A stretch of DNA of 64,000 nucleotides, from positions 8,181,705 through 8,245,704 of the forward strand of contig CM065334.1 of NCBI GenBank assembly GCA_033032175.1, in the 5' to 3' direction. The notes beneath the pieces are model-generated. The model had not been told where the DNA came from, searched no databases, and saw only the letters and a program-made list of their open reading frames with translations. The stretch is from Saturnia japonica. Lineage: Eukaryota > Arthropoda > Insecta > Lepidoptera > Saturniidae. The translations under genes and the position numbers were made by a program. Of this stretch, positions 3,331 through 58,400 are shown in pieces (position 1 is the first letter of the stretch; the number at the start of each line of letters is the position of its first letter).

Positions 3331-3420
3331 TGATTTGGGAGTCTGGCTGCACCTTTAATACAGTGCCCACGAGCCACTCTCTCTTATATGACGCAGACGA
3401 TGTTGCGCGGGTCAGCTAGT

Positions 3421-7311: not shown

Positions 7312-7413
7312 ATGTTGAAGACAAGTCTTCTACTGGTCATGGCGGCCGTCGCATCGTCTATTCCCATCAATGATAAAATTACACCAAGAGATGGAGAAGC
7401 TTGTGGCTATGAG
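7312..7413 (+). CDS. Gene 1 exon 1: signal peptide
   Basis: ATG is 7 nt behind a TTTTTCCAG acceptor (7305), so an upstream untranslated exon is implied. The start [16 protein letters not shown] is a hydrophobic secretion signal, followed by [18 protein letters not shown]. The donor is GAG|gtaagt and the exon ends in phase 0. Secretion or lysosomal routing fits a LAM-type enzyme. Confidence 0.88.
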
Positions 7414-10400
7414 GTAAGTTTGTTTCTCTTTCTACGTCTAAGGGGAGTCTTTATTATGTACAAGAAAAATTATTTTGAATTAATTTTGGGGTTAATTGAC
7501 ATGTTTAAGATATGATACAGCTTGCTAAGCACACCTGGTGCACCCTGAAGAGAAACGGACGAGAAAATACCTTTAGAGGTGCGTCAGGGCTTTACAATAG
7601 GGTTGACAAAAAAAAACTATTTTTTTTACATCTCACATAAAAATAATGTTAATTTATCACGTTTAAAGAATTCTCACCGAAAAATCAACTCGAAAAAATA
7701 TTTTTTCAAAGGCAAATGTTTATTCGTGACGTTTTATCCATATCATAGACACTACCGTTTAGTGCAATAACATAGTGGATATCAGTTTTTTTGCATTTTT
7801 TAGTTGGTTCGATTCTCGGTATAAGTAAGGTTTTTAGAAAATCTGTGAATAGAGTTATTATTACTTCAGAAAATAAAGTAATGTTTCCTATGAGTAAAAT
7901 TTCTATTTTCAATATTTAATACACTTTTCCTCCATGTCCCGTTCGTTTTTTTCCATCCTGTGTATATATTTTATGGATGTTCAGTTCAGCCATGACTTCT
8001 CTGTTTATGAAGCGTTGGATGATTCTTTTTTTGTTGGAAAGGGTGGGGGTTGGTTTCGAATATATACCAGAAAAATATCAAAATCAGTAAAGTCGGTTTT
8101 CATTTTTCGTTACAATTGTCAAGTTAGTGTGATATAAATTCTCGAACCGGGCTGTTTTGGTCGATTACGGTTCGACACGTTATTAGATTAAGTCATTATC
8201 AGAGACCAACTGTTGTTGTACTAATATAGAATAACTTTTGACCTTTATCTAGAAGAAATGTTGTGTGTACATTATGAAGTCATTACGATTCGATTATAAT
8301 TAAATACGTTCTTCTACGATTACCTACTCTTAAATACTTTGTAGGAAAGATATATTAACAAACACTGACATGAAGATGATTTAATGACTTATACTTAACA
8401 CTAAAGCTTTACCCGTGGCTTCGATCACCTCATAGTTATGTACCATTTTAACTGAATTGATAAATACCAATTTTTATAGATCTAACTTCAAAAATAACGG
8501 CTAGCTAGGAGTTAGGCTTTGTGTCCGATTAATGGCAATAGGCTCGCTCCCTATTACATGTTACATACCCGGCGAACTGTGGGTGTACACCTCTGCCTAA
8601 CACTTCGGGGATACAGGCGTTACGTATAGTGCGCTTATCTCGCGTCGCGCAATTTATCATAGGTTTTTTAGGTAGGATTTCTTTGTTCGCGTATAATTTT
8701 GAATTCATGATATCTTCTAGGGCATTAATTTAAATGTAAAACTGTAAAGGACAATTTTAATCTGCATTAAATGCCCAAGTTAACTAATAAATCAAATAAC
8801 CGTAATCTATACAATGAATAAATATGAAGTGTCTATTTGTAATGTCAAAATAACAGTTTTTTACTAAATGCATATCAAAGTATATATACGATATCTATAA
8901 CAAAAAGCCCATTTTTTTTAAATTTTGTCTCTCTGTCTGTCTGTGTTTGGTCCGGGTAATCTCCGAAACGGTTGGATCGATTTTGACGGGACTTTCACTG
9001 ATAGATAGCTCATGATATAGGGAGTAACTTAGGCTAATTTTATTTTAGAAAACATAATAAGGGTTCCGCACAAATAAAAAAACTGGTCATGGTGAATCAA
9101 TTTGGGCGCTAAAATATAGTATTTAATATATATATATATAGTATATTATATAGTAAACTAACTCTTGACAGGCACACATAGGCACTGTGTCTATACACGC
9201 TTTACGCAGCAAACAAGTTATTTAATAGAACATCTGTGCTATACCTATCTATATGAGCTAGCGATCGCCCTAAGGTCGAAATTCGACTAGCGACTTTTTA
9301 ATCATAGACTATTTTCTGTTTGACATTTGTCGTATTCATGAACAATGAGTATTATCTACATCACTTGCTGTCACTTTTCGTTGAGTGACAATGTCAATAT
9401 TTTGAGGAGTCTAAGTTCAATGGCACTTGTCATGTTAGGATTCGCAGTATTTGTTTATTTAATTTAATATATTAGTAACAGATGTTATAGATACATTTTA
9501 GGTTTCTGCACTCCTTCTCCATATAAACTTTAACCAAGCCAAATCTCACAGTCTTCCATGCACGTAATACGCTTAAAAAGGGGTACAAAGTTTTTTCTTC
9601 ACGTATTAATATATAAATTATAAAACTCAGCGTCTCTCTGTCTGTTCGTCCGTTTATGTTCTTTTCACGTGAGATCCGCTTATCCGATTTACATGTTTTT
9701 ATTTTTATCTCGTGGCTATCTTAATTTTACTTTCTACTAAACGCGCTAAAATAACAATGACTTCAAAAATAAAAACCTATCCACGACAGACCAAGATCTC
9801 GTCTTTAAAAAAAAATATTTACCAATGTTAAGTAGGTATGACAAATACACGTTATAGAATTTAGTTAACAAATGTTCAGTGTAGGTACTGTAATAATTTG
9901 TGAGAACAACCCATAAAAAGGATACATTGACACAACTTAAAACAATCACAAAACATAATAATCTCGTGTAAAACTCGGTGTTGTCTGACTATGGATGGAG
10001 TTGCTAGTTTGCAAAATGTTATCTCCCGATTATTTAATTTTAGAGTTGCCCGGAAACCTCAAGCGACGTGTTGAACGTTCACATCGTACCGCACACGCAC
10101 GACGACGTCGGCTGGCTGAAGACAGTCGATCAGTATTACTATGGCAGTAAGGATTAAATTTATTAAATTTAGGATCTTGAGGCTGGAAGCTGCAAAACAT
10201 TTTCATCAACGAGAAATATTTTTAGGCAAAGAACACGTAAAGCAATTGACAGAATATAAAAGCAACTTCAATGATTTTGTGAAATTCCCTGGTGTATCTT
10301 CGAATTGTGTCCTTCAACTTCGAAGATACAAAAGGGACGTTTTCAAAATTTTTGAAATTTGTTATGTCTTTTATAGTCTTTTCATAAGTTCATTTGGATA

Positions 10401-11223
10401 ATTATCAACCTTCCAAGTTGAAATCTGCCATCAAGAACCAACCAATGTATCCTGGGAGTTGTACTTCTTTAGCAGTTTAGCAGTTTAGTCCACTTCGGCA
10501 CTAAACATCAAAGGCCCTAACTAAAGTTGCCTTTTTTAAATCGTTAATGCTAACAGAAATGGAAACAATTATAAATTGAAATTTAATAACTGTATCATTA
10601 GACTAGTGGTCGTAAGCGCGACTGTTAGGCTCGAGGTACTGGATTCGATTCCCAGGTCAAGCAAAGTGTTGTTGGGGTTTTCTATGAAATTGTCAGTAGT
10701 AGCTAAGAGTTTGACTTTGTGCCCGATTAATGGCAATAGGCTCGGCCCCTATTACATGGAACCTAAAAACATACTCGGCGAACTGTGGGTGTACATTAGT
10801 ACACCTCTGCCTAACCCTTCGGGGATAGAGACGTAATGGTAAAGGCACCCTGGTCATGTTAAACTTTAGCAAATAAAATAATTAAAAAATATCCTTGTGC
10901 AGGTAATAACACGATACAGAAAGCTGGTGTCCAATACATTCTTGATTCCGTTATCCGAGAATTGTGGGAGGACCCGAAAAGAAGGTAAGTGCGTCTGTTT
11001 TGACTTTCGCCAGATGTTGACTTGGAGGTTTTTATTGTGCGCAAATCCGTAAAATACGTTGGTTTTCGTTAATACTCGAATTGTATTAGGCGCGCGAGTT
11101 GAATGCAGAGCTAAGGAATTATTAAAAAAAAAAAAAAAAAACACCTATCTAGGTAAACTTGGAATGTAAAACATTATCTAAATGCAAAGTTTCATTGAAA
11201 TCGTTGGAGCCGTTTCCGAGAAA

Positions 11224-11265
<42 letters not shown>

Positions 11266-14200
11266 AGAATTACTCACTTAATATAATAAGATTTACATCT
11301 TGGTTCTTAACATAATGAAAAAACATGGCAAAAAGAAATAATTTATTAAACATTTTTTATCCATTATTTCACACAGTGAAATTAAAGTGTAAAAGCAAAT
11401 CTGTGAAATTTAATCATCAGCAGATTAATTTTCCGTCATTTCCAGTACTTGACGATGAATTGTATTTTTTTGTAATAGAACTTAATGGACTCGGATCAGC
11501 TATTATTAAAAACAAAAAATAACACCACGGGACCACAACTTGAGTATTAAAGTGATCATTAGAGTGGTTTTTAGCAGGATCTTGAAGTGAAATGTTGTGG
11601 TTTTTATTTTTAATTAATTTACATAAGTTTTTAGACCCTAAATTTGTAATATTGGTGGCGTTTTGCGTGATATAGTTTGGCAACCATTCATTTTGAAATT
11701 TGTATGATTTGAACACTCTCTAGAAAGTTCTAACAAAGGTGAAGGGTACCACCATCTTGTTAGGCTACTGAAGTCGTCATAAGACAGGTTACTATATTCA
11801 GTTGATAATGGCAATAATGGTCTTCATTAAAATAGGACTAGTTGCCAAGTTAGGAAGAAATTTTCTTCACTAAGCGTACGATAATTGTCAAAGACAGCAC
11901 TCAAATCAGTACAGTGTAGGCGCGTGAGGTGAAGCGTGCAGCGCGGCGGGGTTAGATGACCCCGTTCTTCACTTCAGGCCCCGACTGCATTCAACTCACG
12001 CTGACTATAGGAGACATTGGATGAATCATCCTTCATATTTGTCCGTCCGAATACATTTTGTCATTGCTTTTTTTCTTTACGTTAATCATAGCATGGTGAT
12101 AGGCTGGTGGAATATAACCTTACAGAAGACCGCAGCCAAATAACCTTGCGTTGTGTTCTTGCGGTGAGGAGAGTTTCCAGACCACTTTGGGGGTCTTATT
12201 GGATACCTGTGGTATTGCAAGCCTCCATAGCCTACGGTAGCAGCATACTATCAGACTGGCTATATACCTGTTTGCTTCCTTAGTTGTATTTAAAAAAAAA
12301 CATTTCAGACGTTGTATTATGTGTCTATTCTCCTATCTTAAGGCTACATACGTACTTCACGCCTCTCTCCCAACGGGGTAGGCAGAAATCATCCACTTGC
12401 TACGATCCTGGCATAGATCTTTCGTTTCTTCAACATTCATCAGTCTTTTCACGCATGCTCGTCGGTTTAGAGTACTCTTGACCTGAACTTTCTTCAGAAC
12501 GTCTCCGATTTGATCGAGGAACATTCGTCTAGGCCTTCCTCTTCCAACGTTTCCTTTCACACTCGCATCATAAATTTGTTTGTAAGCAGTTGTGTCCTCT
12601 AAACATGCCCAAACTATCTAAGCATCCCTTTCTCAATCCGTATGACTTTATATCTTTACGTGGTCTCCTATACTCGAGCAACTTTCCAGAAATTAAGACT
12701 AACTTTATTTAAAGGAAACTTTTGTATCCTTAGGTTTATTTACGTCGAGACAGCGTTCTTCTGGAAGTGGTGGGTCAGACAAACGGACTCCATCAAGGAC
12801 AAAGTTCATACTTTAGTGAGACAAGGACGGCTGCAATTTGTGGGTAAGTTTGAATATTTCCCATATTTTAGAAGACCGTATCAATCTTACGTTTGCTATG
12901 ACATTGTTTATTTTACTATTATATAATAATAAACCAGCTGTGCCCGCGACTTCGTTCGCGTGGGTTACAAGAATGCCGTGAATCGTGCTACTCCCACTCC
13001 CGGTTATATGCTTATTGTTGGTGATCATTAGACGATAGTCACATGCTTTCGAAGACTTTTTCGGAGGACTTCTTTAATGTCTACAATTATGTAGTACATT
13101 AATTTAATATATCTCTTATGGTTTACTCAGCATAAGCTATTTAAGCGCCACAATTGATTGGCCTTGACTCCTTTTTTTTATTTATGCGGATTCCTAATTC
13201 TTTTTCTAAAATAATAGTAGCCTAAGTTACTCTTTATTACATGAGCTATCTGCCAGTGAAAGTCCCGTCAAAATCGATCCATCGGTTTCAGCGATTAGCC
13301 GGAAAAGCCAATAAGTATCGATAGTTTGATAATTATGCATTTAGTAAAAAGCTGTTATTTTACATTACAAACGGACACTTCAATTTTATAAATTATATAG
13401 ATAAATTGGTTCTCATATTTAATATCCATGGCATTAAGCACCTAACTGGCTCTCAACTGCAGCTGCTAGAACTCACCTATAGGTGCTTGGCGACATATTT
13501 CCAACTTGAGGGTGGTAGCTAATCAGTAAACTGCCTACCACCACGATACTGTCCCATCATGACGCTTCCTTTCACCGAAATTCCAAACTCTTTGTAGAGT
13601 AGGAAGTGTAAGGGGTATCGAATTACATATTAAAAAAGTTGAGACGCCCGCACCAACCTCACCTGCACGTGGTGCATCATGCTGAGTAACGAACGAGGAA
13701 ATTGCGATAGCGGGATGGACTGGGTCGCGACCACCATGTATGTGGTGAAAAGTCCGTCATAGTGACTCGATTTTGCGTGTCGCGTGTCGGGATCAGCCTG
13801 TGCATGTCCAGTTAATTGTATGCAGGCTGGCCTGACAGCGGTGACCGTCGACGGGTTATGATCTCACGGTGGTCACCGTTGTGTTTCGATTGTACTGTGC
13901 TTACCATCAGGGACAGTATAGTTAAAGCTGTATCTACTATAAAAAAAAAATTATAATGACTCTATCACAACACACTACCACTGTCATCTTTGCTTTATTT
14001 ATTTTCCAAGTTTAAATAAAGAAAGCTTGGAAAATCCGGGAGTTGACAACTTTTTAAAAATGATTTTTACCTATGGACAAATAAATTTCATTATTACGAC
14101 CTAAAAAGTGATGACATTTTTTTTTTAAATTAACGTCACAAAAACGCGGCTATATGGTCCCGTGACGTCAGCAATTATTTTAGGTGTCAAAGGTGACAAT

Positions 14201-17200
14201 CAGGTAACAAGTGAAAGAGTCTAAACGTTCATATTTATTCGTCTTTGGTTCATATTTCCCGAGTGGTGACGTCACGATTGACGTTTCAAATCACGTGACC
14301 CACATACAAAAAATATTAATTTTTCAAATGGAAAATTAAATAAATAAACAATTACTTATTTCAGATTTGTATTGTTTTAGGCTTTATTACCTAATAAATA
14401 CCAATATTATTTAATAACTTACTTTAATTTTTAAACATAAAGTCAACTCGCGGGTTACTAAGAAATAAAATACGAATCTGTGATAATATTGTACTATAGT
14501 TCAAGGACCATGTCAAGCGGGTTTTACTGTCATAAGGTTATTATAGTGTGGATCGTTATGTGAATGATAGTGATGTCTGGAAGTGACTCCCTCTCTGTGC
14601 ATCCACGAAATTATTATTATTGTACCTAATATATTATTAACACTTGTACAGATGAAAAATAGGTAAACCCGATCAATCGAGTTTCTTACTCTTTCTTCAC
14701 GATGACTGGGATGTTTTTCGAACCGGCAGATGTGTTTTATCGTTCATAAGTGCCTTATGGCCTAAATTGAATTAAGAATTATAAAGAATTTTTTTAATTT
14801 TGATTTTGAATAATTTTCAGGTGGTGCGTGGTCGATGAACGATGAGGCAGCGACCCATTACCAAAGCACCATCGACCAGTTCACCCTGGGCCTGAGGTAA
14901 GCGAACTTCCAACTTCATTGCTATCAATTCAATCCGAATTTCAACTCTAAACGATCGTCGACAAAACTGTTAAATAATATGTTTCTGTTTAATTTGGTGA
15001 GTGGTATCTTAGATGTGCCTCTTCTTCTTCCGGAAGTTAAGACCTTACCTTCAAGAATACCACGAATGGGAATCTGTAATCTATTATGTGAGAAACGATC
15101 TCGTACAAATCTGGGGTATTTTTCACCATTAAATAGACTCAAGAGATATTGTAGCGTTGCTTCCAAGAGTAATAAAAATGTGGTTGATTGATATCTTCTT
15201 TGATACTGCTATTAAAATATATTAATACGTGAAGCAAAAGCTTTCTACCCCTTTTTAAGCGTATTGCGTGCACGGAAGACTGCTAGATTTGGCATGGCTG
15301 TAATTTATACGGAGGAGTGCAGAAAACTAAAATTTATCTATAATATCTTTTACTAATACATTAAATAAAATAAATTAATATTGCGAATCCTAACCAGACG
15401 ACTGCCATTGAACTTAGACCCCCCAAAATATTGACATTGTCACTCAACGAAAAATGACCGTAAGCGATGTAGATAACAGTCATTGTTTATGAATACTGCA
15501 AATGTCAAACAGAAAATAGTCTATGATTAAAATGTCGCTGGTCGAATTTAGACCTTAGGGCCATCGCTAGTATAAATAATTCGAGAATGGTGAAATTTGA
15601 ATACAGCTCGTATGTAACATTATTTATTTGTTTTCCGATCATCAGTAAACTGAATGAAACCTTCGGTGAGTGTGGAAGACCACGCGTCGGATGGCAGATC
15701 GATCCGTTCGGTCACTCGCGTGAGTTCGCCTCACTCCTAGCCGCTATGGGTTACGATGGTCTCTTCCTGGGCAGGATAGATTACCAGGACAAGTCCTCAC
15801 GTCTTCACGACAAGAACATGGAGATGCTTTGGCGTGGAGACGATGATATTGGTAAGTTGAGAATGGTAACGAGCCATGTGGTTATTAGAAAAGGATCTAC
15901 CAATATGCTATGGTTTCATCTTCCTTCACTTAAAGCTCAGATTTGTTTAAGAATTCGAACCTATGTTAATCGATGCATTGTCTAAATATGCTAGAACGGA
16001 GCCATCAAGGCTCTAGAATTTTCTGTAGCTTTTATATTATCAATCAAAAATCAAACAAAAACCCTTTATCCAATTTAGGCCTTAAGAAGGCTTTTATGTA
16101 CGTCAAAACACTACTGCCAGTTCGGAAAACATCCCAGTCTTTGAGAATAATTGGGAAGAAATTTGATCGGATCTATTTTGTTTTGCTTCTTTGTGTTAAT
16201 GTAATACAATAATAATTTAGTGGATGCACAGAGAGGAAGTCACCTCCAGACATCACTATCATTTACATAATGATCCACCCTATAATAATCTTTTGACAGT
16301 AAAACCCGCTTGAAATGGTCCTTGAACTTGTTGTCCGGTAAATCAGTAATGTGTTTCGGGATCTTACTAAATCTAAAACACGGTACGACTAATTTATCTT
16401 TATTTCTAGTATTAACATTGTGCTGATCTTTGACTAAATCTAGCTAGACTAAGTTTTTATTAATATACATTACGTTATCAAGGATGTATTGGGAAGGCAA
16501 AGTTATGATAATAAATTCTTGTTCTTTAGTGATTCGCGAGGTCTCATGTTGTATATTGCTCGAATTGTCCGCTTTTGTAATAAAAATATGGTATCTACCT
16601 CAACTGCTGAACCCCACAGTAAAATACCGTAAGACATTACACTATGAAAGTAAGCGAAGTAGACTAACCTAGCGGTGGCAATATCTGTTAACTTGCGAAT
16701 TTTGCGTACTGCGAATGTCGCCTATCCACTGAAGTGGAGCCGTGCGAATTTCGGTCAATAGAGTTATATAAAAAATTTAGTGATGCAAAAAAATTTGCTT
16801 CAGTCCACAAACAGTTTTAATTTACTGTTTTAACCAGCGACTAATTTCATTGTTTAAAGGAGAGGCATCAGATATATTTACGGGAGTACTTTACAATACT
16901 TACTCGCCGCCGCCCGGCTTCTGTTTCGATATACTCTGTGATGACGACCCCATTGTCGACGACCCTGATTCGCCTCTCTTCAATGTCGACGAAAAGGTAA
17001 AAAATGTTGCTAGATATATAAATATAGATTCGTTATATTTTGCTATTATTTTCATAGATGGCGCGCTTATATAAACTTTATTTAATAAAATAATTTATTA
17101 CTATGCTTCGAGTTAAAGTATCAAATTTATATACGTTGTTGGGAAGTGATTATTTTAAAAGATAGTTTATTTTATGCGTTTAATTTCTCTTTGTAATTTT

Positions 17201-20200
17201 GGTACCGAATATTAGATGGCGTTGAGCTGCAATTTTGTTTTAATTAAAAAAAAAATTATATGGAAATGATATTTTACGATTTATTTGCCAGGGGAGTTTA
17301 TTCCTAATCTATTGCAACCCGAGAGTCACTTACAATTTGAATAATATTTTTTGATTACTATCAACAAATATTAGTTTTGATTGTAATAATTTTATATTAA
17401 GATTTAGACTAATTTTATAATCTATTTAGGGGTTAGAATTGTATTGTATGTAGATTGAAAACTGGTAAATTTATTTAGTAACGATTTAATTTATATATGT
17501 GGCTAGATTACACTATAGTTTTAACCTTGTTCTCTAGGCAAGTCAGCCTCATTATAAAATCTTGTCAAGTTTAATTAAACCTATAAAAATTTGTTAAAAT
17601 AAGTAGAACAAATTTCTAGGTGTCACTTTTTATAGAAGTGTGTAAGAATATGTCGCGCGCTTACAAAACTAACAACATACTGATAACAATGGGGGAAGAT
17701 TTCCAATATCAAGAGGCTGCGATGTGGTACACGAACTTAGACAAGCTGATCGAGTAAGTAAGTCAGCATATGCCGCAGCACCGTGCACGGATTAAATGGC
17801 ATGATGCGAATATGCATGATGATAATATGCAACATATTTCTAGTAAATAGAAATAACCGGAGTAGATATTTTAAGACGTCTGTTTGCTTTTTTTACGAAT
17901 TAACTTGTTTATCTATAATCAAATTATATTAAAATAAGTTGTGCGGTCAGGAGACTTGCAAAATAAAATAAGTAAAATATGATTTAAAAAATCAGTTAGT
18001 CCAATTCATAAAAAACAAATCGCTGTAAGTTATATGTACTATAGATAATGAATGATAAACCGTTGAATCACTGAATGCGTGTGTATTTTGCAAGTCCACT
18101 CTGATGGGCCCCGCCCGTAGTGCAATGTTTTGTTTGTTGTTTGTTTCTTTTGTTTTGTACTTGAGAAAGGGATATATAACCGGTCGCGCACGATGTTTGT
18201 CTAATGGAATTAGACAGAGAGAAAGTCGCATACCGCAATCTGTGTTAAAGGACTTCGTTCCAAAAATGGAATGTTATTTCCTTCACCCATTTAAGAAATG
18301 TAGAGTAAAACAATGCAATTCCAAAAAAGGACGGATAGATGGCGTTTAAAAGAAATATAACAGTTACGTGACGGCATTTACGATTTTACCCATAACCATT
18401 CAGTGTTGGAAAATAGTATGTATTATTGAAAGTGTTTCTACTGGTACGGAATTCGCGAGAACACATATTTAAAGGTTCTTTTCAATGCTTAGTGATCTAT
18501 ATTTACATGTCTGTCAAGGTGGATCGATTTATGGAAGTGTGCAGAAAAATGTCAAAGGCGTATAGGACGAATAATATATTGATCACGATGGGCGACGACT
18601 TCCAATACCAGGATGCTGGGATGTGGTTCAAAAACTTAGATATTTTGATGGAGTGAGTCAGATTAACGAATTTTAAATTATTTCTCTGCTTTACTTATAT
18701 ATTCATTCTCTTCTGACGTCGCTGTCTAAAGTCCTGTCATTTATATGTTGGCTCTAGTGAGAACTGAGTTGGAACGGCTCGTGTCAATGCGTGCTTTTTA
18801 AGCACACCCTTCAGAATAGAACACAACAGCGCAAAACGTAATAGAACCTATCCTTAAACATTTTCATATGTACAAGGTGTCCAGAAAGGGTATCGGGTAT
18901 TTGTAAGTTCAATGAAACAAATTATTTGTATGCAATAAAAAAGTTTATTGTTTATTATTAGCATATGAATTGGAGAATTATTTGGAAAAGATGTTATCCA
19001 AATGATGACCGTTACGTTGCTGGCACTCTTCTAAACGGAAACGAAGATTGGCGATAACACGTTGACACATAGCTATCGATATTGCTGCCATTTCTGACCT
19101 GATGTTTTGCTTTAACTGGGTTAGATTCGTCGGATTGTTTTGATAAACCTTACTTTTTAGGTATCCCCATGCAAAATAGTCAAGCGGGCTAAGGTCGGGG
19201 CTTCTGGGAGGCCAGTTGATGTTACCCCTTCGCGAAATGACTTTATTAGGGAATAATTCGTTAACAACTTCCATTGAGTCATTTGAGGTATGGCAAGTGA
19301 CCCCATCTTGCTGGAACCACGTTCTTGAGTTGAAACCTGCAAACTCCTGCAACTCTGGGACCAAAAAATTTCGCAAGATATCGCAATAACGGTCACTATT
19401 CACATTAATTGCTCGGCCTCGTTGATCTTCATGAAAATAAGGACCAATTATGCCTTTAGCAGACATAGCGGCCCAAACAACGACCTTTGGGCTATGCAGG
19501 GGTCGTTCATGCTTTCGTCTCGGATTCTCCACTGCCCAGTACCGACAATTCTGCGTATTAACATGACCATTCAGGTGAAAATTTGCTTCGTCACTGAACA
19601 GTATGTTGTTAAAGTTGTTAAATCGCTGCAGCATTTCGTTCGCAAAATTCAGTCGATTAGCATAGTCCGTATCCTTCAATTCTTGAACCAATTGAATTTT
19701 ATAGGCTTTTAGATGTAAGTCTTTCTTTAAAATCGAATGTAAAGACGATTTTTTGATGTTCAATGCTTGGCTTCGCTTTCGGTTGGATAAAGACGGATTT
19801 TGACGAACCGACGCCTCAACTTCTTCAATTGTTTCTTCATCGCGAACTGAACGAGGACGACCAGAGTTTTGAATTTTAACTGTCGCACCTGTATTCTCGA
19901 ACATCCTGATCCATTTCCTAATGCTATCGTCACTTGGCGCGTGGCGTGTACGATATTCCGCACGATAGACGTTGAGCAGTCACTATTGAATCACCATTAC
20001 GATAATACGCTCGTACGCAAAATGCGCGATGCGTCCCCGAGTACTGTTCCATCGTGACTAAAACTCCACAAAATGGCGGACGCCACGAACCCCTCCCCGC
20101 ACCCTTTAGACGCCCCGTTTCGAATATGGCGCGAAAACAAATACCCGATACCCTTTCTGGACACCTTGTACAAAGTACGTTACCAAAAGGGCTGTGTATC

Positions 20201-23200
20201 TGAGATCTGAGATGTACTATAAATCTTCATATCTTTTGTCAGAGATTCCCACCTTTACATGGCGAATACTGGTGACGAAAGATGCATGACGAGGAATTTG
20301 ACAAAACCGGTGTTTCATAATCGTTTAATACTTGATAGATTGGCAAAGTATTGGAACTCAGATAGCGAGGCTAGCATTGATTTCAATATGCAGAAATCAT
20401 CTCTTAAAATCTTTCGTTGGTACCCTGATAGTCAACGAGACTTATGATGGTTTATAGTCAACTTGCTTATCATAAATATATATGTGGGAGCGTAAAATAT
20501 AGTGTGTAGACAGTTTAAAGCGCTGTCGTGGTGTATCTGCGATTGGATAACTTCTGATCTGTCGACAGGCCCTACTGACGTATTCATGCCACGGTTTCCT
20601 TGTCGGAACGACTTGTGATTGGTGGGAGAGCGCATTAGTCAGTTACACAACAGTACAGGAAGTCAGTGTACAAATCTAAAAAACTGTACCGAAAGTTAAT
20701 GTATAAATCTAAATAATATAAAATTGTCTTATACTCCCACATATATTTGTGGTTACATGTATGTATGTTATTTGATGTCAACGTGACCTTAAATTATTGC
20801 TTGGGTTACATTAATTTGTAAAATAAGTCATAAGTTTAAAAAGCAATTTCATGCATGTAATGATTTAGTTTGTTTTAGGTACATCGATGTGGTCACTAAT
20901 TGCTTGGCTTACAATTTTCTGTCATCAACATTTGGTTATTTTTTTATTTAATACATTTTTAGAAAGAATGCATGAAAGTGAACCCAAAAAGTCTGTATAT
21001 TGATTTTTTAATTGTGTCGCGTTTAGTAGTGTTTAAAGTCGAGAACTGCGAACGCATCGTGTGACGGATGTGCGATGTAACGAAGATAATTATCTATAAT
21101 AATAGTTTAAGTTTATTTTACTCATTTTTTTTTTGTTGAGTGTGCGTAGATAAGTAATCACAATATTTTTGTAAATATTTAATATAAATACGTTATCTCG
21201 ATACATCATAACTGCCATCGGTAGGCGGAATTCACACTGCTTGAGAAATATAAAACTTAGGAAGTTATCGAGTCTCCAAAGTAGCATTATATCTTGCTCT
21301 ATGTCAACGCCATCTATTATTCGTTGCGCCTAACTAATTTCTGCCGATAAGCTAATTTAAGCCCAGTAAAATTTTCAAGTTCAATGTAAAGCTGTAATTA
21401 TTTTATTTTTTTATTCACTTAGTCTTTTGACCCTATATTATGTAATATTGGTGGCGTTTTGCGTGATTTAGTTTGGGTTTAGTTCATAAGTGAAGAAGTG
21501 GATTGTAAATATAAACTAAGATTCTCATCATTCTGTGATCCCACAAAACTCTCTAGAAAGTTCTAACAAGGGAGCCACCATCTTGTTAAGATACTGAAAT
21601 CGTCATACGACACAACACTATATTCACTTAATAATGATAGTAATGGTCTTCAATAAAGAGGACTAGTTGCCAAGTTAGGAAGAAGACAAGGAAGAATGAA
21701 AAAAAAAAAATGTTTTTACAAGTAATCGAAAGCTTTCATGGTATCTTAAAAAAGTTTCCAATTTATACAATAAAAAAAAAATTGTGCGTCTCGGGACGCT
21801 CGATAGAAGTGATAACTTAAACTAATAAAAAAGAAAAAAAAAGACCAAACGTAAGAGAGGAAGGGAAGCCGGCGAGGATTCGAAGCCAGGACTTCGGCCA
21901 TAGTAGTCACACTAACGACCGCTAGGCTACGAGCGTGATGTTAGAATTAACTGAAACTGTGATATTATTAATTGCGCCGTAACGCGTTACGTTACGAAGC
22001 GGTTTACCCTCCCATTAGAAGTTATCACTTCAATTAAGAGAAATTTTATAATTTAATGAAAGAAAAAAAGTAAGTTCTTACTGAATTTGTTATATATATA
22101 TTAAAATAGATTTTATTACTGTTGTCAACAGATTGCGTTGTTTATGAAGTATGTGAGTAATCAAGCGAAAAGCTACAGTACGAATAACGTAATCATAACA
22201 ATGGGCGGGGATTTTACATATCAAGACGCCGTCATGTGGTACAAAAATTTAGATAAATTAATCGAGTGAGTGTTTTATCTTCCAGAGCATTATTCAATTC
22301 TACAAACTAATAATTATTTATATATTTAATTCGGCGAGTCAAGTTTCACAAAATCAGACAGTCCGTACCTACTGTGATTACCAAAGGTTATTTAATAGTT
22401 CAATTAGAGTTTTTCATAGTTTTCCTGGTCCATTTGAGATGCTATATGTGTTTCATAACAATGCGTCCAAAAGCACCACAATCACGATATACAATATGTG
22501 CGTTGGATCCGTGGAGATGTTATTAGGTATCGAGATTTTAGATTTTAATTTCTATCTCAGATTATAAGTAAAAAAATTACCCCTAATAAAATTTTAAAAA
22601 ATTAGTTAAATAAGGAAACTTACATGGTAATACTGGTGGCGCGGCGCAGGGTATTGCCATATGATTAAATTTACCGCTGCGCTGCGCGTGGGCTGGCGAC
22701 AATGTTATCACGTTTTAAAAATTTGCTAAATATTAGGGAAACTTAAACTAAATATGTTAATTTTAAATCGCTTTAACATTTTTATTTTCATCATAAATAA
22801 AGTTATGATATATCTTTTGGTAATTTCATTGGGGTACCTATATACATACCTTTTTCGGATGCGACGGGGTTTTTTATACATATTGTATATTGTGAAAAAT
22901 CGATAAGTGACTCGTTTTAATGCGTCGAGTTTACGAGGTCAGAATTCGTATTGCCTAATGATTTCCGCCACGGTTGATTTTAAAGAAATATCCTTTTTTC
23001 CTTAGTTGCATTTTGATTATTATCAGGCGAAGAGAAGTTAATCTAACTGGCCTGGATGAAATAAAGTTAGCTTATGAAACAACTGACCAAACTAGCTCTG
23101 GATAGCTGATTGCCATCTTCCAAGAGCTGGAGAGAATTTAGAATAACGTTATTTGAAAAAAAAAAATTGATTATCGGACATTTTGGGTTCTACTATTTGT

Positions 23201-26200
23201 TGTCAAATTCATGTTCTGTTCGCCACTATTACAAGACAATTTTTAACAAATAAGAAAACCAAGTTCTCACCAAGAAGTTCTCTACTGTATCTTCGAAGTT
23301 ACGCCATCCAGGAGACCGAAAAAAAGAATCATCCAAATCGGTTCATAAACAAAGAAGTTATGGCGGAACATCCATTAAAAAATATAGATTTGAATTTAGA
23401 ACCTCCGTTTTTTGAAATCGGTTAATAAACTGATATAAACTCCATTCAAACATTTTCATCGCATGCATGCTTCGAGCTTTCTCGATTTAAGTTATAGACC
23501 CAGTTAGTTATAAACTAGTTTATCCACGATCACGTCTGATTTACTAAGTGACAATGTTTTCGACTATGACCAAATGATGATCTCAAAAGTAATTATTAAG
23601 TGTAGCTGCCAGAAAACACTAGTTCATTACAGATTTTCACTTTAACAAATATAAGATAGAATTGTGAAATGCATTAACACCGTGATACGGTTTCAATACG
23701 ATCTTGTTCTTTCCTTTCTTTCCGATCTTCGAAGGAATGTTTTATTTTTCTATCTTTAAAATACCCATCACTTTAAGTGTATCAAACAAATATAGCACAA
23801 GAAAAACATATTAATTTTAGGATAAGTAATATGTTGATTAATATTTCTCCAGATATTCCAATCTAAAAGCGGCTAAGGACGGCCTGCAAATGAAATTTAT
23901 GTACTCAACGCCGACTTGTTATTTGAAGGCTGTGAAAGATTCTAAGTAAGTAGATTCCTTCATTTTCCTTGCAGCATTTCAATGTACAAATTCGAACGTA
24001 ACTATCAAGGTTTATTATCCTCTAGCAGAGACTTCGGACGTGAGAAGCATGGTTTTCATCGCTTTTGTTTTTATAAGCGCCTGATTACAATGGAATTAGT
24101 GATAAAATACAGTATATTTTGATCGATTATAATTTTTTAGCTATTTCATGAAAATTTAATAAGACATTATGTTTTCAAATTTAATAAAAACTTAATCGAT
24201 TTTTCTGTTAAACGCGAAATAAATATATATCAAAGCACACATTTAATTCACGGCATCCTATGTGAGGCTTGCGACAACGTTTACAACGAAATAAATGTGA
24301 ACAATGGACGGCAAACGAACTATGGTAAAAATTGCACTTAGTTTCTCTTAAAATGGGTTGCCTGAAATAAATAAATAATAATTTTTGGTTTTAACGTTTG
24401 GCGATCTTATTTTATGTGACGTCTCACGACGGTTCAAGATGGTAAAATGTTAAGTCTGGTCGAAAACTGTATTTTAAGTACATTATAAAAACCCTACCAC
24501 CATGCTATAGTTTCATCGCAATGTTTTCCTTCACCGAAAGCACAGACTCATTGCAGGGATTCGAACCCACGACGAGTGGCGTGATATTCATTTATGCTAC
24601 AACAAACAATATTTGATATTGCAGAAGTCCTTTGAGTTACCAGTTTTAGATATTAGAACACTAGATGGTGGTAAATTTATATAAATACTATCTCTGTAAT
24701 AGTTGTTAGATGGCGCTGAATTACATACTTTATACGACTACAACTACAAAGAAGTGAGTTTTTGACGGGCTCTTGAAGTGACATGTTGTGGTTTCTATTT
24801 TTAATTCATTAACTTAGGTTTTTGACCCTACATTATGTAATATTGATCATGTTGCATGTTATAATGTGGTTGTTATGTATAAGTGAAGTGGATTATAAAT
24901 ATAAAACGGAAAACATGTATTTCGGGATGTCACAAAAACTCCTAGATAGTTCTGACAAGTGAGCCCACCTTGTTAGAATACACCACTTTGTATGTAGGGA
25001 AAATTATATAAAGGCTTAAAAACATTGACACTGGCACGTGCTTTTTGCGGCGCCAAAACAAGAAGATGAACTATAAAGAAAACACAGCAAGAGACCAAGA
25101 CTAAGGATATTACAGTACCCACCAGAAAACTTAAATGGAAATGGGCGGGGCACACAATCAGGAGCAACGAGGAGAAATGGTGGAAATCAATAATGTCATA
25201 ACAAAAGGAAGCGAGGCTGGTCATCTATAAGACGGGTGGATGAAACTACAGCTGTGGCTGTGCTGGCGACAGATTAAAATGACCATTATCGGACAATGGC
25301 ATTGACGCTCTTTACATGCAATCGTGAATGGTGGGCAATTGCCCTCAGTTCACTTTCGACTTGATGCCGACGTGAGCGGGAAGAAACTTTTGTCCTTTTT
25401 TGACAACATTGTTTCCGGCTTACGCTGTGATTTCCTATCTCTTTTGTTTCAACATGCTGATAACCATATTTGTACTTTGTTCAAATTGCTTTTGGTGAGA
25501 GTACAACGAGTTTATTAATAAAACATCATTGTTGTTTGCTAAAAGAGGTCACACGGACAAGGTTGTCGAAGCGAAATAATTAGAACAAATGTAAAAAAAA
25601 ATGTTTATGTAGGAGTTTGCTTGTCTGTTAAAGTGGAAGCGAGATGAAAATATACTTTCGTTTCAGTCCCGTCCTACCGATAAAACAGGACGATTTCTTC
25701 CCGTACGCGAGCGACCCGACAGCGTACTGGACCGGCTATTTCACGTCGCGGACCGACCACCAAATATTTTGAGAGAGAAGCTAATAACTATTTACAGGTA
25801 AGACGAAGGATTGTACGGGTTTTGGAGGAACAGAGATAGAATTACCGATCGCACTATAAAATATAGCATTGTAATGTATTTCTCGGGTCTGCGTATTAAA
25901 TTGTGGGTGGAGTTTTTTAATTTACTGGCTGTGCCCGCGGCTGCGTTCGCGTGGACTACTAAATGGCGTCAATCGGGCACACGCGCGAGTCTTGCTACTT
26001 CGCTCCCGGCTATTTAAAAAATAAAAATGCTTATTGAAAGTGATCCTTACAAGATAGATATATGCTCGCGCTGACTTTTTGTAGGTCCTTTTAGATCTTA
26101 GAGATTAGAACTAAATACATACCTACACAAGGGATTGAAAGCTAAAATTTATCTATAATATCTGTTACTAATATATTTAATAAAATAAATTAATACTGCG

Positions 26201-29200
26201 AATCTTAACACGACCAGTACCATTGAACTTGACCCCCAAAATATTGACATTGTCACTCAACGAAAAGTGACAGCAAGTGATATAATATTCATTGTTTAGG
26301 TTCATACTGCAAACGTCAAATAGAAAATAGTCTATGATTAAAAGGTCGCTGGTGGAATTTCTATCATTGGGCGACCGCTAGTGCTATTAAAACATGAAAA
26401 GATGTTTTTTTTTTCATCGGGATCGATTTTTATTTCTGACCCATCATCAAAGGTATTATCAGTACCTACTTTTATCTGTTTTCCTTTTCGGGAGTGTTTC
26501 CCTAGTACCCGGTAGATAATAGATTTTCCTTTCAGGTAGTTAAGCAATTGCAAGTGCTCGCCGGTCTGGACAAACACAACGTGTACGTTTTGAACGAGCT
26601 ACGAAACGCAATGGGTGAGTTTTTATAACTACCCGCATGTCTTTGCTAAGTGACTCATTGAAGTGACAATGCGCTTTATTGTAAAGTCGAGTACAATCTA
26701 GAATCGATTATTATTCCTTCAAAACTTTTCGCTTATTGAATAGTCTGTCTTTTGGGTGGCTTCTGAATTAATATACTACAATCCATATCGTTTGAAAAAA
26801 AAAAAAAACAAGCAGTCATGAGAACTGCCGACAGAAGTGAAAACTTAAAACTATAAACAAACAGTTGTAATTTTTGGATATCCAAATTAATTGTTTGATT
26901 TTAAATTAAAAGTTTTTCACACAATAAATTTGTTTTATCACGTTAGTGAAATCACTCCTAATTTACTATAAAATACGCATTGCATAGTGATTGTAGGTAA
27001 TAAAAAAATATGATATTCTTCATTTTTAGGTTATATTGCTACAAAGACTACGTTTTCTTCGTTATTCAAACTATATATCTATATGAGTATATTTTATATT
27101 CACTTTTTACTACACAGTAATCGTATACTTAAGATTTAAAATAAAAATTGAACAATAAATTATACTATATACCATACCAAATAAGTAATACCATGTCGAT
27201 GACCATATAGACCTTATAGAGACCATTCCAATGAACCCAAATGCGATAACTCTGCTGTAAGTTGGTGAGGAGTTGGGTTTCCTAAAGCATTACTTTAATG
27301 TTGACATCTTCTTCTAATATAATTGAATTAACAGTATACCAGATTTCCACCCGTTCAGACCTGTGGAAGATGCTCGCATCCATTCATCAACTACAATACG
27401 ATTAATAATCTTCAAGCGGGTGAATAAATTTCCTTGAGAACACTCTCGATTAAGTCACCTTTCGAACAAACATACAAAAAAACTAGTTCAAAATCGATTT
27501 AGCCATTTGGGAGCTATGGTACCAGGGGCAGACTTACAACAACCCTCTTTTGCGTGGGGGTGGTTAAACATGTATGAAAAATAGGACTTCTCCTACTGTT
27601 CGCTTTTTAAATTACCTCTTCTGAATTAAAAATCTATCGACAGCTAAACGCAAATCCCACTACTGAGATTTACAGAACTAAGATGGAAAACAAGCGTACG
27701 GCTCGCGCCCGATTGATTCTAAGCGGGTACAGTAATCTATGGATGCTTGTAACACCAGAGGTATCACTGGCGCATTTCAGACCTTAAACCCCCATTCCCC
27801 AAATGGCCCTGAACACAATACAAGGTTATTTCGCCGCGATCTTTTGTAGGGTGCCCCAGGTGGAGAGAAATCTAAGAAGAAATAGTTGAATGAAAGTTGC
27901 TTTTCTCCTGTCGGAAGGTGTGATGCAGCATCATGACGCTATAACGGGTACAGAGAAACAGCACGTGGCCCATGACTACGAGAGGATCCTCAACCAGGCT
28001 GTCGACGACGCTCTAATCATTTCCCAGCAGGCTTTCAAGTGAGTTTGTATGGAAGTTTAAATATAAATGTAAGCCTCTAAGTGTCGAGCAGGTTTTTCTG
28101 TCAAAAGGTTATTATAGGATGGATCATTATGTTATTGGGGTTTTCTATTAAATTCTCAGTAGCAGCTCGGTGTTTGGCTTTGTGCTTCATTGATGGGAAT
28201 AGGTTCGCCCCCTATTACATGGGACCTAAAAGATACCCAGGTGAACTGTGAGTGTATTTTAGTACACCCCTGCTTAACCCTACGGGGATACAAGCGTGAT
28301 GGTGATATTATGTATTAATACTATTGTATAGTTGGAAAAGAAAGATAAATCCGATTGCATTTCTTACCGGTTCTTCTCGATGGCTGGGATATTTGTACGA
28401 ACCGTTAATAATGTTTATAAGTGTCTTCTTAGGGACTAAATTGAATGAATTATTTTTGATGTTGATTTTTGAACTCACTTTAATATTATTGAACTCATTT
28501 TAATATTATTGTATAATCTTCGAATTCATCGTCATACATCAGGTACAGATGGCGAAAAGCTAGTGTCTTTAGATTTTAGCATGCGAGATGTGGTTAGATT
28601 CGTCTTAACTGTAAAACGTGATACAGGCTATATAATATTATTCTGGGAATTAAATAAAACCAAAAAAAAGTGTAGTGTAGAATCGTTTTTAGTTGCAATC
28701 GGTTTTTTTTTGTTTTCCTTTTTATTAATAATTTTTTTCTTCATAATTTTAGTAAAATAAAGCAAGGGAAATCGAGCAAACAGCCAATGTTTAGTTATGA
28801 CAGATGTCACTTTAATGAATCCAGTTGCCGAACAACGGAAACAAGCGACAATTTTATTGTAAGTGTGTTACATATAATTATGTTTAATAATATTTTTATG
28901 TAAAAGGCATTACAAAGAGTAGGTCACTTTTGACGTTTCTCGTTGATCATAACGAACTGGCTTTGTTCGAACGTTCTAACATAAAAACGCAAATTCGTGA
29001 ATGCTAAAGTTATTTGCAAAATCTTACGATGATAACAAACTATAATGTTCTGTTTACTAAAATAATTGTTTAACACTATTGAAAAGGTCTCTGACATCTG
29101 TTTATTCTTAATCAAACAACACAAAGAAGCGTTGAAACGAAGTTATGTCATTCGGCGTAATCCGCCGCGGAAACGTAGTGGTGTTAATACTTTTGTAACC

Positions 29201-32200
29201 ATTTGTTAATCGAGCATAATCAATTACTTTAAGAAAAATCAACACTTTATTATTTACTTTTTAATTTATAATAAAAGCATAGATTAACGATTGGTTGAAG
29301 CCGGCGCTACAACTAGATGCCGTCGGCGTATTATAACAAATCGGTTATCAAAACGACATCGAAATCGTGTCATTACAAATCTACCATACAATACAATAAT
29401 TAATATTCTCATAGGTACCAGATTAATGGCAATAGGCTCGCACCCTATTACATAGGACCTAAAAACATATCCGGCGAACTGTGGGTGTTTATTATTAGTA
29501 CACCTCTGCCTACCCTTCGAGGATACAGCCGTGATAGTATTTTATGTTTTATAATTATATGTACAGTAAAACACACTTGTATGTCCGTATAATTTGAATC
29601 AACCCTCAATATTTAATATTACTATAATTCTTAAGACTGAATACACGATACTTTCAAATCACTATATAACTTTTTAATCAATATACTTAAAAAGTTGAAG
29701 TGAAAGTTTTTTAGCGCTTGCGTGAATGTTTCTGTCATAGTACTACCAGCGAATTATAGATGGCGCGCGAGTCGTTTCATGAAATAGCTATATTTTTATA
29801 TAATTACAACTCTGAATCCGAGTTAAAATGTACAGGCTATATATCGTTACGCTTTTAAGTAGGGGCTAAGCTGCAAATGTTACTCTTACTGGTTTATACA
29901 GATGATTTAATACTGTTTACAGGTGACAATATATAACAGTTTAGCTTGGAATGTGTTCAAATTCATAGAGATACCAGTCATCAAAGCGGATTACGAAGTC
30001 TACGATCATAAAGGTAAGAAATTATTAGTTTTATCCTGATAAAGTTATATTCACGTGGTTAACCCGACGGAACAAGCAATGTACGGCAATTCGATGTATT
30101 TTGTATTTTGTAGTTAGGTTTCGAGATCAACTTCAGTATGCAGCAAGGATTTTGGTTTTGGTGGCAGGCAGACATTATGAACACTTTGATGAAGCATTTT
30201 CCTCTATAAATATCCGAAACTCCATTAACAATGTCAATGCTGGAGTATTTGCGTTGCCAGCCAACTTACAGGTTTCCCAAACCTCGGTTCAGCTACCATT
30301 TGTGATTAATTTCAGCTGATGTTAAATATTTGACTCAAATGCAGCTGCTGGAATTCTTCTATAGGTTCATATTGCAAAAATATCTACCACATTGCGAAGA
30401 TTACACTGAGCCATTACTTCTCGCATTAATCTATTTTGCTATAACTATGTATTAGGGTGGGCCAAAAAAAACTTTTAATTATTCTTTTATTAATTACCAT
30501 GAAAATATCGTCTGAGATGACAAAAATCTCTCACATCTCATGACATGACATGACATTTCAGTCGATATTTTGATGATAACTAAAAAAAAAAAATCCAATT
30601 TTTTTTTGGCCCACCCGAACGTACATGTATATAAAAAATAATTTAAATAATAGATAAAAGTATTTTTGTGCTGATAAAAACTTAAATTTGCATTAATTTT
30701 TTCGAAACTAATGAATTATATTAAAATTTTCCGAAGAAAATGTTGAAAAATTAGTAAGAGCGATAAGTATTGAACTTTGATCATAAATATCTTTCAAACG
30801 CTTATTCTAATCGACTAAGCATAAGAGACCTTTTTTGTAGAGCATTTAATTTCCTCAAGAAATATGTATTGCGCATTTTATAACGTTCATTTGTCAACGA
30901 CTTACAAAATTCAGAAGCAAAAAAGAAATGTACCTTAAAATCTTTAAATTTCAATCTTGAATATCTTTAAAATGGCGAGGCGTGCGAAAAAAATGTAGGA
31001 AAACTTTTTTGTAGAACGTTCAATTTCCTACAAAAATCTCTTGAAAAATTTTGCTTTACGAACAACGAATGGTGAGATATGAATTTTATTATATGGGACT
31101 AAAGAAAAAAAGAAAAACTCTAATGCGCCACCTCTTAATATTAATATTAAGAGCTGAAACTTTAACACAATTTTTTTTTCGTCATCTCAGACGGTCTTTT
31201 CATGGTAATTAATAAAAAAATAATATAAGCTGTAGTGTTCACTTAACTTCATCTGGACTAAATTTTAGTATATTTATTTATTTAGGTCACCGACACAGTC
31301 GATATTAAAACACTATCATCTAAACAATTTTTGTTAGATGTGACCGTATTTACAAGCATGGTTGGGCGGTAGTATGTTAATTTCTTAGAATTCCATTTAA
31401 TATTGATTTATGTACATTTTCCCAGGTAACCAAATACTTACACATATAACAGAGATACCGGATTTTATTAAAAACATACCCACAAGGAAATCTCACGCTA
31501 CCCATCTTTTATTTTTTCTAACTCAACTTGATCCGTTAAGTATGACGTCGTTCTACGTTAAGAAACATGTAAAGACAAATAAAATTAAAAGACATGCTAG
31601 GAACAATGAGTATTATGACAATATCAATGAATATTGGGTAGTTAATAAAGACTCTGATCTGGTATTTATACAAAAGTTAGAAGAACTGAATACTGATAAT
31701 CGAAAACTTGGTAACTTTGAACATACGATTGAGGATATATACAAAGATCAAGTTAATACAATAAATAAAGATTCAGAATTATTTAAAGATCGAGATATTA
31801 TCGATGAATTAGAGAAAATGGTTATTAATGAAGAAAGTAGAAGAAGTAGGGAGCGATCAAAATATGATGATATATTTTCAAAAATGGATGAAGGCGAAAT
31901 GAGAATGCTCTCAGATGAACCAAATTTGAGAGACGGTTTTACTATGACTTATGGTTATTACCCTGGATGCGTTGGTGATAATAGAGAACCCGCCAATCGT
32001 AGCTCTGGAGCTTATATATTCAGACCGAACTCGACAAATCCTAAACCTTATAAATATGAAATTAATGTGCAACATGCCATTGAAAACGGAGATATTCGAC
32101 GTACAGTCACCAGTTTTGGCGATGATCTATCAATAGTCAAAACTGATTATGTAAGTTTGAATATCAGCGACATAACCTGGTTTGTTAGGATTTTTGTCGA

Positions 32201-55400: not shown

Positions 55401-58400
55401 CGCACTGAGCTCTTTTCAACAAAACTTTGGCTGCACCACGAGTTGTTGCGGTAATACCGTCGACACACACATGTGTAAAAGGAGATCAGTCGACGATAGT
55501 GTTATTGTTTTTGTTTAATTCTAATGATAAACTATGATTGCAATAGATTTCGTTTTATTCAGAATCAGAGCACAAATACAGAAAAGCTAATACCACAGAA
55601 CGACATCGGGGAAAAAGGTGTCAAACGTGAATGTCAAAACTAACACTTCTTAAACCGTTTACAAAGCTACCAAGAGAAGGTCTTTCATTATTCTGTATTG
55701 CGTTTAAAAAGAAACACCAACAGATAGTAGGGCGGATTGGTGGCGATACTCTCGCTAGTGGAGGTGGCACGTAACGATAAACAGCGCTCATAACAGTGAG
55801 AATATTAAAAAAAAAATCCGTATAAAAAAATAATAAAGAAAATGCTCACGTGATGAGTTTGTCGATGTTTCCGAACCACATCGCCGCATCGTAGTATCCA
55901 AACAACTGGCCCATCATCACCATAACATTCTTCGTGGTATAATAAGGTGACTGGCGGTGAAGCATGGACTGGATAAATAAGTCTACCTGCGTTAACAGAT
56001 TCTTGTCAAAATAATTGTTTTTTTTTTTTTACGATTTCCAAAAGTATTAATGACAATTCTTATGGCTTATTAATTTCGAAATATACTTCCCGTCTGTGAC
56101 ATTTAATTAAAATCGGTTGAGAATTATTATATATAATTATAATTCTTATATCTTTTAGATAGGACTAGCTGGCCCGCGCTACTTCGTCTGCGACACATAA
56201 GAGAGAGAAAGAGAGAGAGAGGGTTAGAGAGAGTGGGTCGTAGGCACCTATAATACAATTCTAAATGAGTTGAAACTTTCTTTGTTTTATCTACAAACTT
56301 ATTTGAGCACCATTGGCCCTCCCCTCCTCACATGACTCCCCACATCATTCCGCATAATAAAAATGCGGGCGCGGTACATGATCATTATTTTTCTGCGGAG
56401 TTATTTTAAAACTGTGATATCTCCTATGATATTCATTTAAAATCAATTGTTGTAAAGGGTAATTTTGTTGAAATTGAAACACTTATGATGAATGACGTGT
56501 TTATTTCGATACGGATTAATACCTTGTTTATGAAAACACACTCGCTAATAATGCATTATTTTAGAAAAAAAAATTATTATCATAAAAAGGGTTATGTTCA
56601 GTCAACTTTAAAAGATAGATATTTGCTATCGCGGACTTTTTTTTAGAACTTTTTAAGAGAAACAATTCCGTCACACATAATTGTTACGTAACTGTAACCA
56701 TTGACGCAGCGCACGCAATGGAAACTTTCAATAGAAATAAATTTTCCCCGTTTTTGCAATATTTTTCATTGATGCTCCGCTCCTATTGGCCGTAGCGTGA
56801 TGTTATATAGCCTATAGCCTTCCTCGATAAATGTGCTATCCGACACTAAAATATTTTTTCCATTCGCACCAGTACTTTCTGAGTTTAGCGCGTTCAACTA
56901 ACCAAACAAACAAACTCTACAGCTTTATAATGTTAGTACCCATAGATGTCTATCGGATAATTGTCTGCCAGTTGATCTCAGGATTCATCCAATTTTTATT
57001 AAATATCTACTTAACCACCTTATGGAATCCACTATTTTTTGTAATTTATTTTACTATAAGAAATCAAACTGAAAAAATAAATATCTGAAATTAAATCATC
57101 ATGAGAATTATTTTTCGCAATTCCCCGTGCTAAGCTATGAATAAAAACGTGTTTTTTTTATAACAGAACTTGACGGACTCGGATCAGACATTATTAAAAA
57201 CAAAAAATAACATGGAGTCGCAACTTGAGTATTAACGCGATCAGTAAGCGTACGATAACTGTCAAAGACAGCATTCACATCACTACAGTGCGGGCGCGTG
57301 AGGCGAGGCGTACGGACGGCGGGGGGAGTTGCTCCCTCTCTTCACCTCAGATCCTGACTGCATTCACCACTCGCGCTTACTATAGGTGGAGTATATGAAA
57401 CAATCAAGCGGGGTCGTAGGGATCTGTACTCGATTGGATCGTGACCTACCAGCGATCTCTTGTGACGCCTTCAACTATAGCACCCACCTAGAACGTATTT
57501 AAAATTCCAAAGGATGTTTAAAGTTTTTCCTTCAAATGACGCAACTGAAACATTCGTGAGTGTCAATGCTCAAACATAAGCGCTGAGTGTCTCACCCGTT
57601 CTTCGATGTTAGGAGAACGTGTCATCGGAGCTGATGAGGAGCGGGCTGTCGCAATGGCTTCCGAAGCAGAACCCTGGCGGTGACCAGTAACCGTCGAACA
57701 GTTTATGAGTGTAGATATCAGTTCCAGAACCTAATATTAAGAAACGCTTTAAGTATTGTACCACTAAAGAACAAATTCCAGTAATATAAATATCTCAATT
57801 TTGCCCTCCCAACTAGGGTTGTTGCGGATGCAGATGCGGATGCGGATTATTAGAGGCTCACATGCGGACTTCAGGATTTTTTAAACATAATTCAATTTTA
57901 AATACATAAATAAATGAAAATCGATTTAAATTTAATGTTTAATTAATCATATTTTGAGAACAAAAATAATACAGTTTTTAGTCTGACGTATCCGTTGTTT
58001 CAGTTACTAAAGTTAGACAAATATAACCTTTAGTCAGTACTTTTTTTCCAGGATTGATAGGTCATCAATGAATAGATTATCCTATCTACAAAATTTATAT
58101 TATCCATATCCTATGGTTTGGATAGATAAGAGAGAAGCCGATATCTGTCTTGGGTTAAATATAGTACTTATTACAAATATGTACTAATCGAGGATAGTAA
58201 ACTCAGATATGTTATTGAAAACGGCCATTAGTCAAGCTAGATTTTGTCAAAGATCAGCACAATGTTAATACTAGAAATAGAGATACATTAAAACAAAAGA
58301 GTGGTCAAAATCTATCCCCTGGTTTGTGCGTGATGCGCGCACAACGGCAAAGCTATAATTTTATTTATATAGAAGAAAGTACATATTATATATACCAGTT

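Follow-up and report, generated by a model that had tools for sequence, protein, structure and literature searches.

We describe a 64,000-nucleotide stretch of the Saturnia japonica genome (GCA_033032175.1, contig CM065334.1, positions 8,181,705 to 8,245,704 of the forward strand; hereafter the window), in which a gene for a GH38 alpha-mannosidase (gene 1) carries three versions of its exon 8, the exon that encodes the catalytic acid/base Asp. This arrangement is probably an old tandem-duplicated cluster of mutually exclusive exons (MXEs) in a GH38 subgroup-B alpha-mannosidase, the isoforms of which would differ mainly in sugar binding.

The three versions of exon 8 are located on the + strand at 17620..17753 (version 1), 18519..18652 (version 2) and 22132..22265 (version 3), and each encodes 44 residues plus a shared Glu (E) codon. 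All are 134 nucleotides (nt) long, with the borders AG/GTG and GA/gtaagt in version 1, AG/GTG and GA/gtgagt in version 2, and AG/ATT and GA/gtgagt in version 3. They align without gaps, sharing 30/44, 25/44 and 24/44 residues and 95/134, 83/134 and 82/134 nucleotides in pairwise comparison, and each retrieves the other two when searched within the window with tblastn (E 2.6e-14 to 8.7e-20). A profile was also built from the three versions and the corresponding segments of an adjoining second GH38 gene (the paralogue), bovine lysosomal alpha-mannosidase (LAM) and the jack bean enzyme. Run over six-frame open reading frames (ORFs) of at least 15 amino acids (aa), it recovered the three versions and the paralogue exon at E <1e-25, these four top matches being themselves in the profile, and the next ORF at 0.17. 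At the nucleotide level, the likeness among the versions extends 6-9 nt past the exon on the downstream side, still within the donor signal, and on the upstream side it stops short of the intron; the alignment of versions 1 and 2, for example, pairs 17629-17762 with 18528-18661 and ends 9 nt into the intron. As the likeness is confined to the exon and donor signal, the introns have lost theirs.

On the + strand, repetition in gene 1 is confined to exon 8 at the threshold used (E up to 0.1). Split into 13 query pieces, exons 2-7 and 9-14 have a single + strand match apiece, and at this threshold no + strand repeat of any other gene 1 exon was found, exons 1 and 15 included; the remaining matches of exons 2-7 and 9-14 are on the - strand, nearly all of them inside the paralogue. 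The original prediction, made from the letters of the window, had given the coordinates, length, AG and GT borders, common phase and residue identities of the versions, all of which we confirm, and its statement that gene 1 has no further repeated exon holds on the + strand within the threshold used. Measured against the sequence criteria for MXEs of Pillmann et al. (PMC3228551), the versions combine similar length (134/134/134 nt) and sequence homology with compatible splice sites, a kept frame and no in-frame stop. They are also clear of the false positives that arise from tandem gene copies and terminal exons, being internal, between exons 7 and 9.

The reading frame accommodates one version at a time. 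When placed singly between constitutive exon 7 (16860..16996, + strand, ending in phase 0) and constitutive exon 9 (23853..23945, + strand, which completes the Glu codon), each version reads through in frame. Translation stops after residue 279 when no version is included, after residue 337 with versions 1 and 2, after residue 321 with either versions 1 and 3 or versions 2 and 3, and after residue 337 with all three; in this last case the 402 nt are in frame by length, yet a stop is met because the frame is wrong for the later copies. Beyond the exon 8 region, the frame is kept only by an mRNA with a single copy. The earlier argument from length, by which zero or two copies shift the frame, did not cover three copies, although translation stops there too.

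Divergence among the versions supports the presence of three working exons. By the Nei-Gojobori count, synonymous differences per site (pS) amount to 0.89, 0.83 and 0.97 for version pairs 1-2, 1-3 and 2-3, which means saturation, and library estimators yielded no usable synonymous divergence (dS) for this reason; replacement differences per site (pN) are 0.16, 0.29 and 0.27 for the same pairs. A freely drifting copy would raise replacement divergence in both of its pairs, and since this divergence is low in all of them, all three copies appear to be constrained. In a drift simulation at the observed total distances, crude in that it assumed equal rates and a single branch, 20, 15 and 15% of the runs retained an open frame, and the 99th percentile of identity in these open-frame runs was 28, 21 and 20 of 44 residues, below the observed 30, 25 and 24. 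The pattern supports purifying selection on every version pair and, together with the anatomy and the frame test, lends good support to the predicted mutual exclusivity.

Given identical flanks, versions 1, 2 and 3 match bovine LAM at 56.2, 58.6 and 61.2 bits, and they share 19/44, 21/44 and 21/44 residues with bovine exon 8 and 20/44, 22/44 and 20/44 with that of jack bean; by these identities, none of them seems clearly ancestral. When seven segments of exon 8 (the three versions, paralogue, bovine, jack bean and fly Golgi) were placed in a tree, 0 of 4 inner branches were resolved, so the order of exon and gene duplication is not read from it. Searches for relatives in viral contigs (59 and 25 pattern matches) and in prokaryote genome contigs (125 and 213 pattern matches) confirmed none. 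Between versions 2 and 3 there is a mobile element (18869-20172) with perfect 36-bp terminal inverted repeats, which suggest a young insertion, and a 333-aa ORF (18978-19979, - strand) that resembles DDE_3 weakly, at a score under the cut-off; by appearance, the element is mariner/Tc1-like.

Several observations weigh against an MXE cluster. The whole case is read from the genomic sequence of one species, and the pS and pN counts come from a custom, hand-written script. The pyrimidine tract of the version 1 acceptor is the poorest of those listed (8/20 versus 9-15 elsewhere). Docking-selector pairing, sought in upstream and downstream arrangements with fixed selector regions, was matched or bettered by 9/25 and 11/25 shuffles, in what is a weak single-species test. 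Finally, exon 10 (25667..25797, + strand) has one base too many at 25752-25755, and in the assembled sequence this extra base ends each of the three isoforms after residue 382. The original prediction had missed this break, and its claim that a single copy gives a full protein holds for the frame past the exon 8 region and fails, in the sequence as assembled, at exon 10.

The weak acceptor tract of version 1 and the mobile element inserted between versions 2 and 3 would both suit an old exon duplication that left one or two copies behind as unused relics. We consider this unlikely, given the saturated synonymous and low replacement divergence in all three pairs and the frame, borders and catalytic Asp kept in all three copies. 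The exon 10 break raises a different alternative, namely that gene 1 as a whole has recently become a pseudogene or null allele in which the exon cluster survives as a fossil, and an apparent frame break at the end of paralogue exon 7 points in the same direction. This explanation also appears quite unlikely, as all other coding exons of gene 1 are free of stops and indels in a draft assembly would account equally well for both breaks. The paralogue reads SRPALK across the place equivalent to the gene 1 break. The break in exon 10 is either an assembly indel, a null allele in the individual or the mark of a recently dead gene, and the breaks in the two GH38 genes are consistent either with indels in an assembly of draft quality or with the decay of both genes.

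Any combination except a single copy leads to an early stop, as would be the case if the extra copies were poison exons, the serial inclusion or skipping of which lowers the enzyme level by decay while the working protein comes from a single version; this proposal leaves the protein-level constraint in all three copies unexplained, and we regard it as very unlikely. That the copies descend from different tandem genes that lost their remaining exons is hardly credible, for although a second GH38 gene is present in the window, it is on the opposite strand with an exon 8 of its own, and no further GH38 exon is duplicated on the + strand.

If the versions form an MXE cluster, the differences that matter would be those beside the catalytic acid. 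Across the three versions 20/44 positions are invariant, and in the block TMG-x-DF-x-YQ around the catalytic acid 7/9 residues are the same throughout, the variation being limited to the two x positions. The residue before the acid/base Asp is E, D and G in versions 1, 2 and 3, and the residue two after it is Q, Q and T, giving the motifs GEDFQY, GDDFQY and GGDFTY; the acid/base Asp itself is kept in every version, as had been claimed and as the alignments confirm. In HMMER alignments the two variable positions correspond to S/Q in bovine LAM, D/Q in jack bean and D/R in fly Golgi mannosidase II (dGMII). Placed by alignment and published numbering, the first is equivalent to dGMII Asp340 and bovine Ser318, and the second to dGMII Arg343 and bovine Gln321.

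Both positions are cited as Golgi-versus-lysosomal differences in a 2026 review (PMC13204073). According to this source, the lysosomal homologue has Asn262 and Ser318, a neutral pair, where dGMII has its Asp270-Asp340 dyad, the ionisation of Asp340 in dGMII responds to the protonation of the acid Asp341, and Arg343 of dGMII holds the M4 mannose, the equivalent region of bovine lysosomal mannosidase (LMan) containing Leu272 and Gln321. The partner of Asp270 is located in constitutive exon 7 (the Ser of NTYSPP in a by-eye alignment) and is identical in all isoforms. With the variation falling on both x positions, exon exchange would alter the Asp340 and Arg343 equivalents and spare the catalytic Asp. 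This two-position pattern is suggestive; it comes from three sequences, and both positions also differ among the bovine, jack bean and fly enzymes.

Based on these results, we propose that the spliceosome would include one exon 8 copy per transcript, and that transcripts with zero or several copies would carry an early stop and be destroyed. Messenger RNAs with early stops are removed by nonsense-mediated decay. Every isoform would keep the nucleophile and the acid/base Asp and swap the flanking E/D/G and Q/Q/T; the enzymes would differ mainly in binding the sugar next to the cleaved bond, and perhaps also in the ionisation of the acid/base. From the mapping onto published GMII and LMan positions we infer, as the original prediction did, three enzymes that would differ beside the active site. 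Of the two roles it had offered, substrate choice is favoured, while a pH role is possible and the weaker idea, because version 2 shares GDDFQY with the jack bean enzyme. The motif is identical in the two, and jack bean alpha-mannosidase is classed among lysosomal types in published work, so that an Asp at this position alone does not make a Golgi-like enzyme. As context only, and not matched to gene 1, a lysosomal alpha-mannosidase has been found in silkworm digestive juice at pH 9.2-9.8 (PMC6940845). It is possible, and we suggest it tentatively, that gene 1 yields three alpha-mannosidases by exchanging exactly the Asp340 and Arg343 positions that set Golgi apart from lysosomal GH38 enzymes, so that subsite specificity or working pH would be tuned by splicing rather than by gene copies, for example in a lysosomal versus a secreted gut form.

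With regard to how exclusivity could be enforced, steric exclusion by crowded splice sites is ruled out by the length of the inter-version introns (765 and 3479 nt). Incompatibility between U2 and U12 splice sites was judged unlikely, the listed borders being of the ordinary AG and GT kind.

Gene 1 has 14 constitutive coding exons placed on the + strand (7312-33101), in addition to the three alternative exon 8 copies. Besides exons 7, 9 and 10, these comprise, also on the + strand, exons 1-6 (7312-7413, 10044-10146, 10903-10984, 12734-12843, 14821-14896 and 15646-15851) and exons 11-15 (26536-26614, 27918-28038, 28753-28858, 29923-30013 and 31426-33101). The start of exon 1 is signal-peptide-like, exon 6 includes the nucleophile motif QIDPFGHS, and the last exon includes the GH38 C-terminal domain. 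With an X at the frame break, the protein matches the GH38 N-terminal, middle and C-terminal domains at 1.9e-80, 3.3e-21 and 6.5e-23. Its N-terminal part, including version 2, scores 386 bits against bovine LAM, 347 against jack bean and 138 against fly Golgi mannosidase II, and both the nucleophile Asp and the acid/base Asp are kept, their roles being assigned from published GH38 residues. Judged by these similarities, gene 1 is a GH38 subgroup-B (lysosomal-type) alpha-mannosidase, far nearer to lysosomal than to Golgi enzymes. The last exon also encodes a charged stretch of ~140 residues between the middle and C-terminal matches, outside the jack bean alignment.

The paralogue (33653-62811, - strand) lies in tail-to-tail orientation relative to gene 1 and seems to continue beyond the window end. 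Its single exon 8 (55850..55986, - strand) is one codon longer, with MGQLFGYY in place of MGxDFxYQ; a Leu is aligned at the acid/base Asp, such that the catalytic acid is lost, and QDHNVITGG is found where QHHDAITGT is expected. The paralogue may be a pseudoenzyme or a dying gene. The intron after its exon 8 contains an open 1303-aa Copia-type retrotransposon polyprotein (47827-51735; RVT_2 1.2e-66) and a Tc1-type transposase ORF (53395-54108; HTH_Tnp_Tc3_2 1.1e-19). Elsewhere in the window, a 178-aa ORF (2847-3383, - strand) resembles, by eye alone, a remnant of a retrotransposon lacking long terminal repeats (non-LTR), and scans with Rfam (gathering level) and ARAGORN gave no match over the window.

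Exchange of exons that re-edges a catalytic site has been published for other enzyme types (PMC7434440, PMC7954323). Exons 6a and 6e of coq-2, in C. elegans and other rhodoquinone makers, are likewise homologous MXEs of an enzyme gene that alter near-substrate residues, and their exchange also changes the product made; unlike the present case, they number two rather than three, belong to an unrelated enzyme, and have had their splicing and function shown experimentally (PMC7434440). CG42249 and nine catalytic-site MXE events, fly included, similarly involve exchange at or near catalytic residues, but in CG42249 it is the catalytic residues that switch, whereas in gene 1 the acid/base Asp stays the same and the residues beside it change (PMC7954323). 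In docking-selector clusters, of which Dscam exon 6 and srp are examples, one of several tandem homologous exons is likewise used; they differ in having a common docking-selector pairing (PMC6071210), which was not found above chance here. Among the titles and abstract openings listed from the open-licence literature, we found no description of such an exchange in GH38, and the word 'mannosidase' is absent from the main text of the MXE survey papers examined.

The closest parallel within the family is Drosophila LManI-LManVI, which are GH38 subgroup-B enzymes diversified in number, with some loci adjacent; their diversity comes from six gene copies, and the available text of that account does not mention exon duplication (PMC4006722). 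Exon exchange near enzyme active sites is already known, and the GH38 catalytic-acid exon would be a new instance of it with an interesting target site. The three versions would amount to an experiment of nature, with three variants compared at two residues that have already been considered in designing inhibitors selective for the Golgi mannosidase (PMC13204073), in contrast to the fly, which diversified the same enzyme class by gene duplication instead (PMC4006722).

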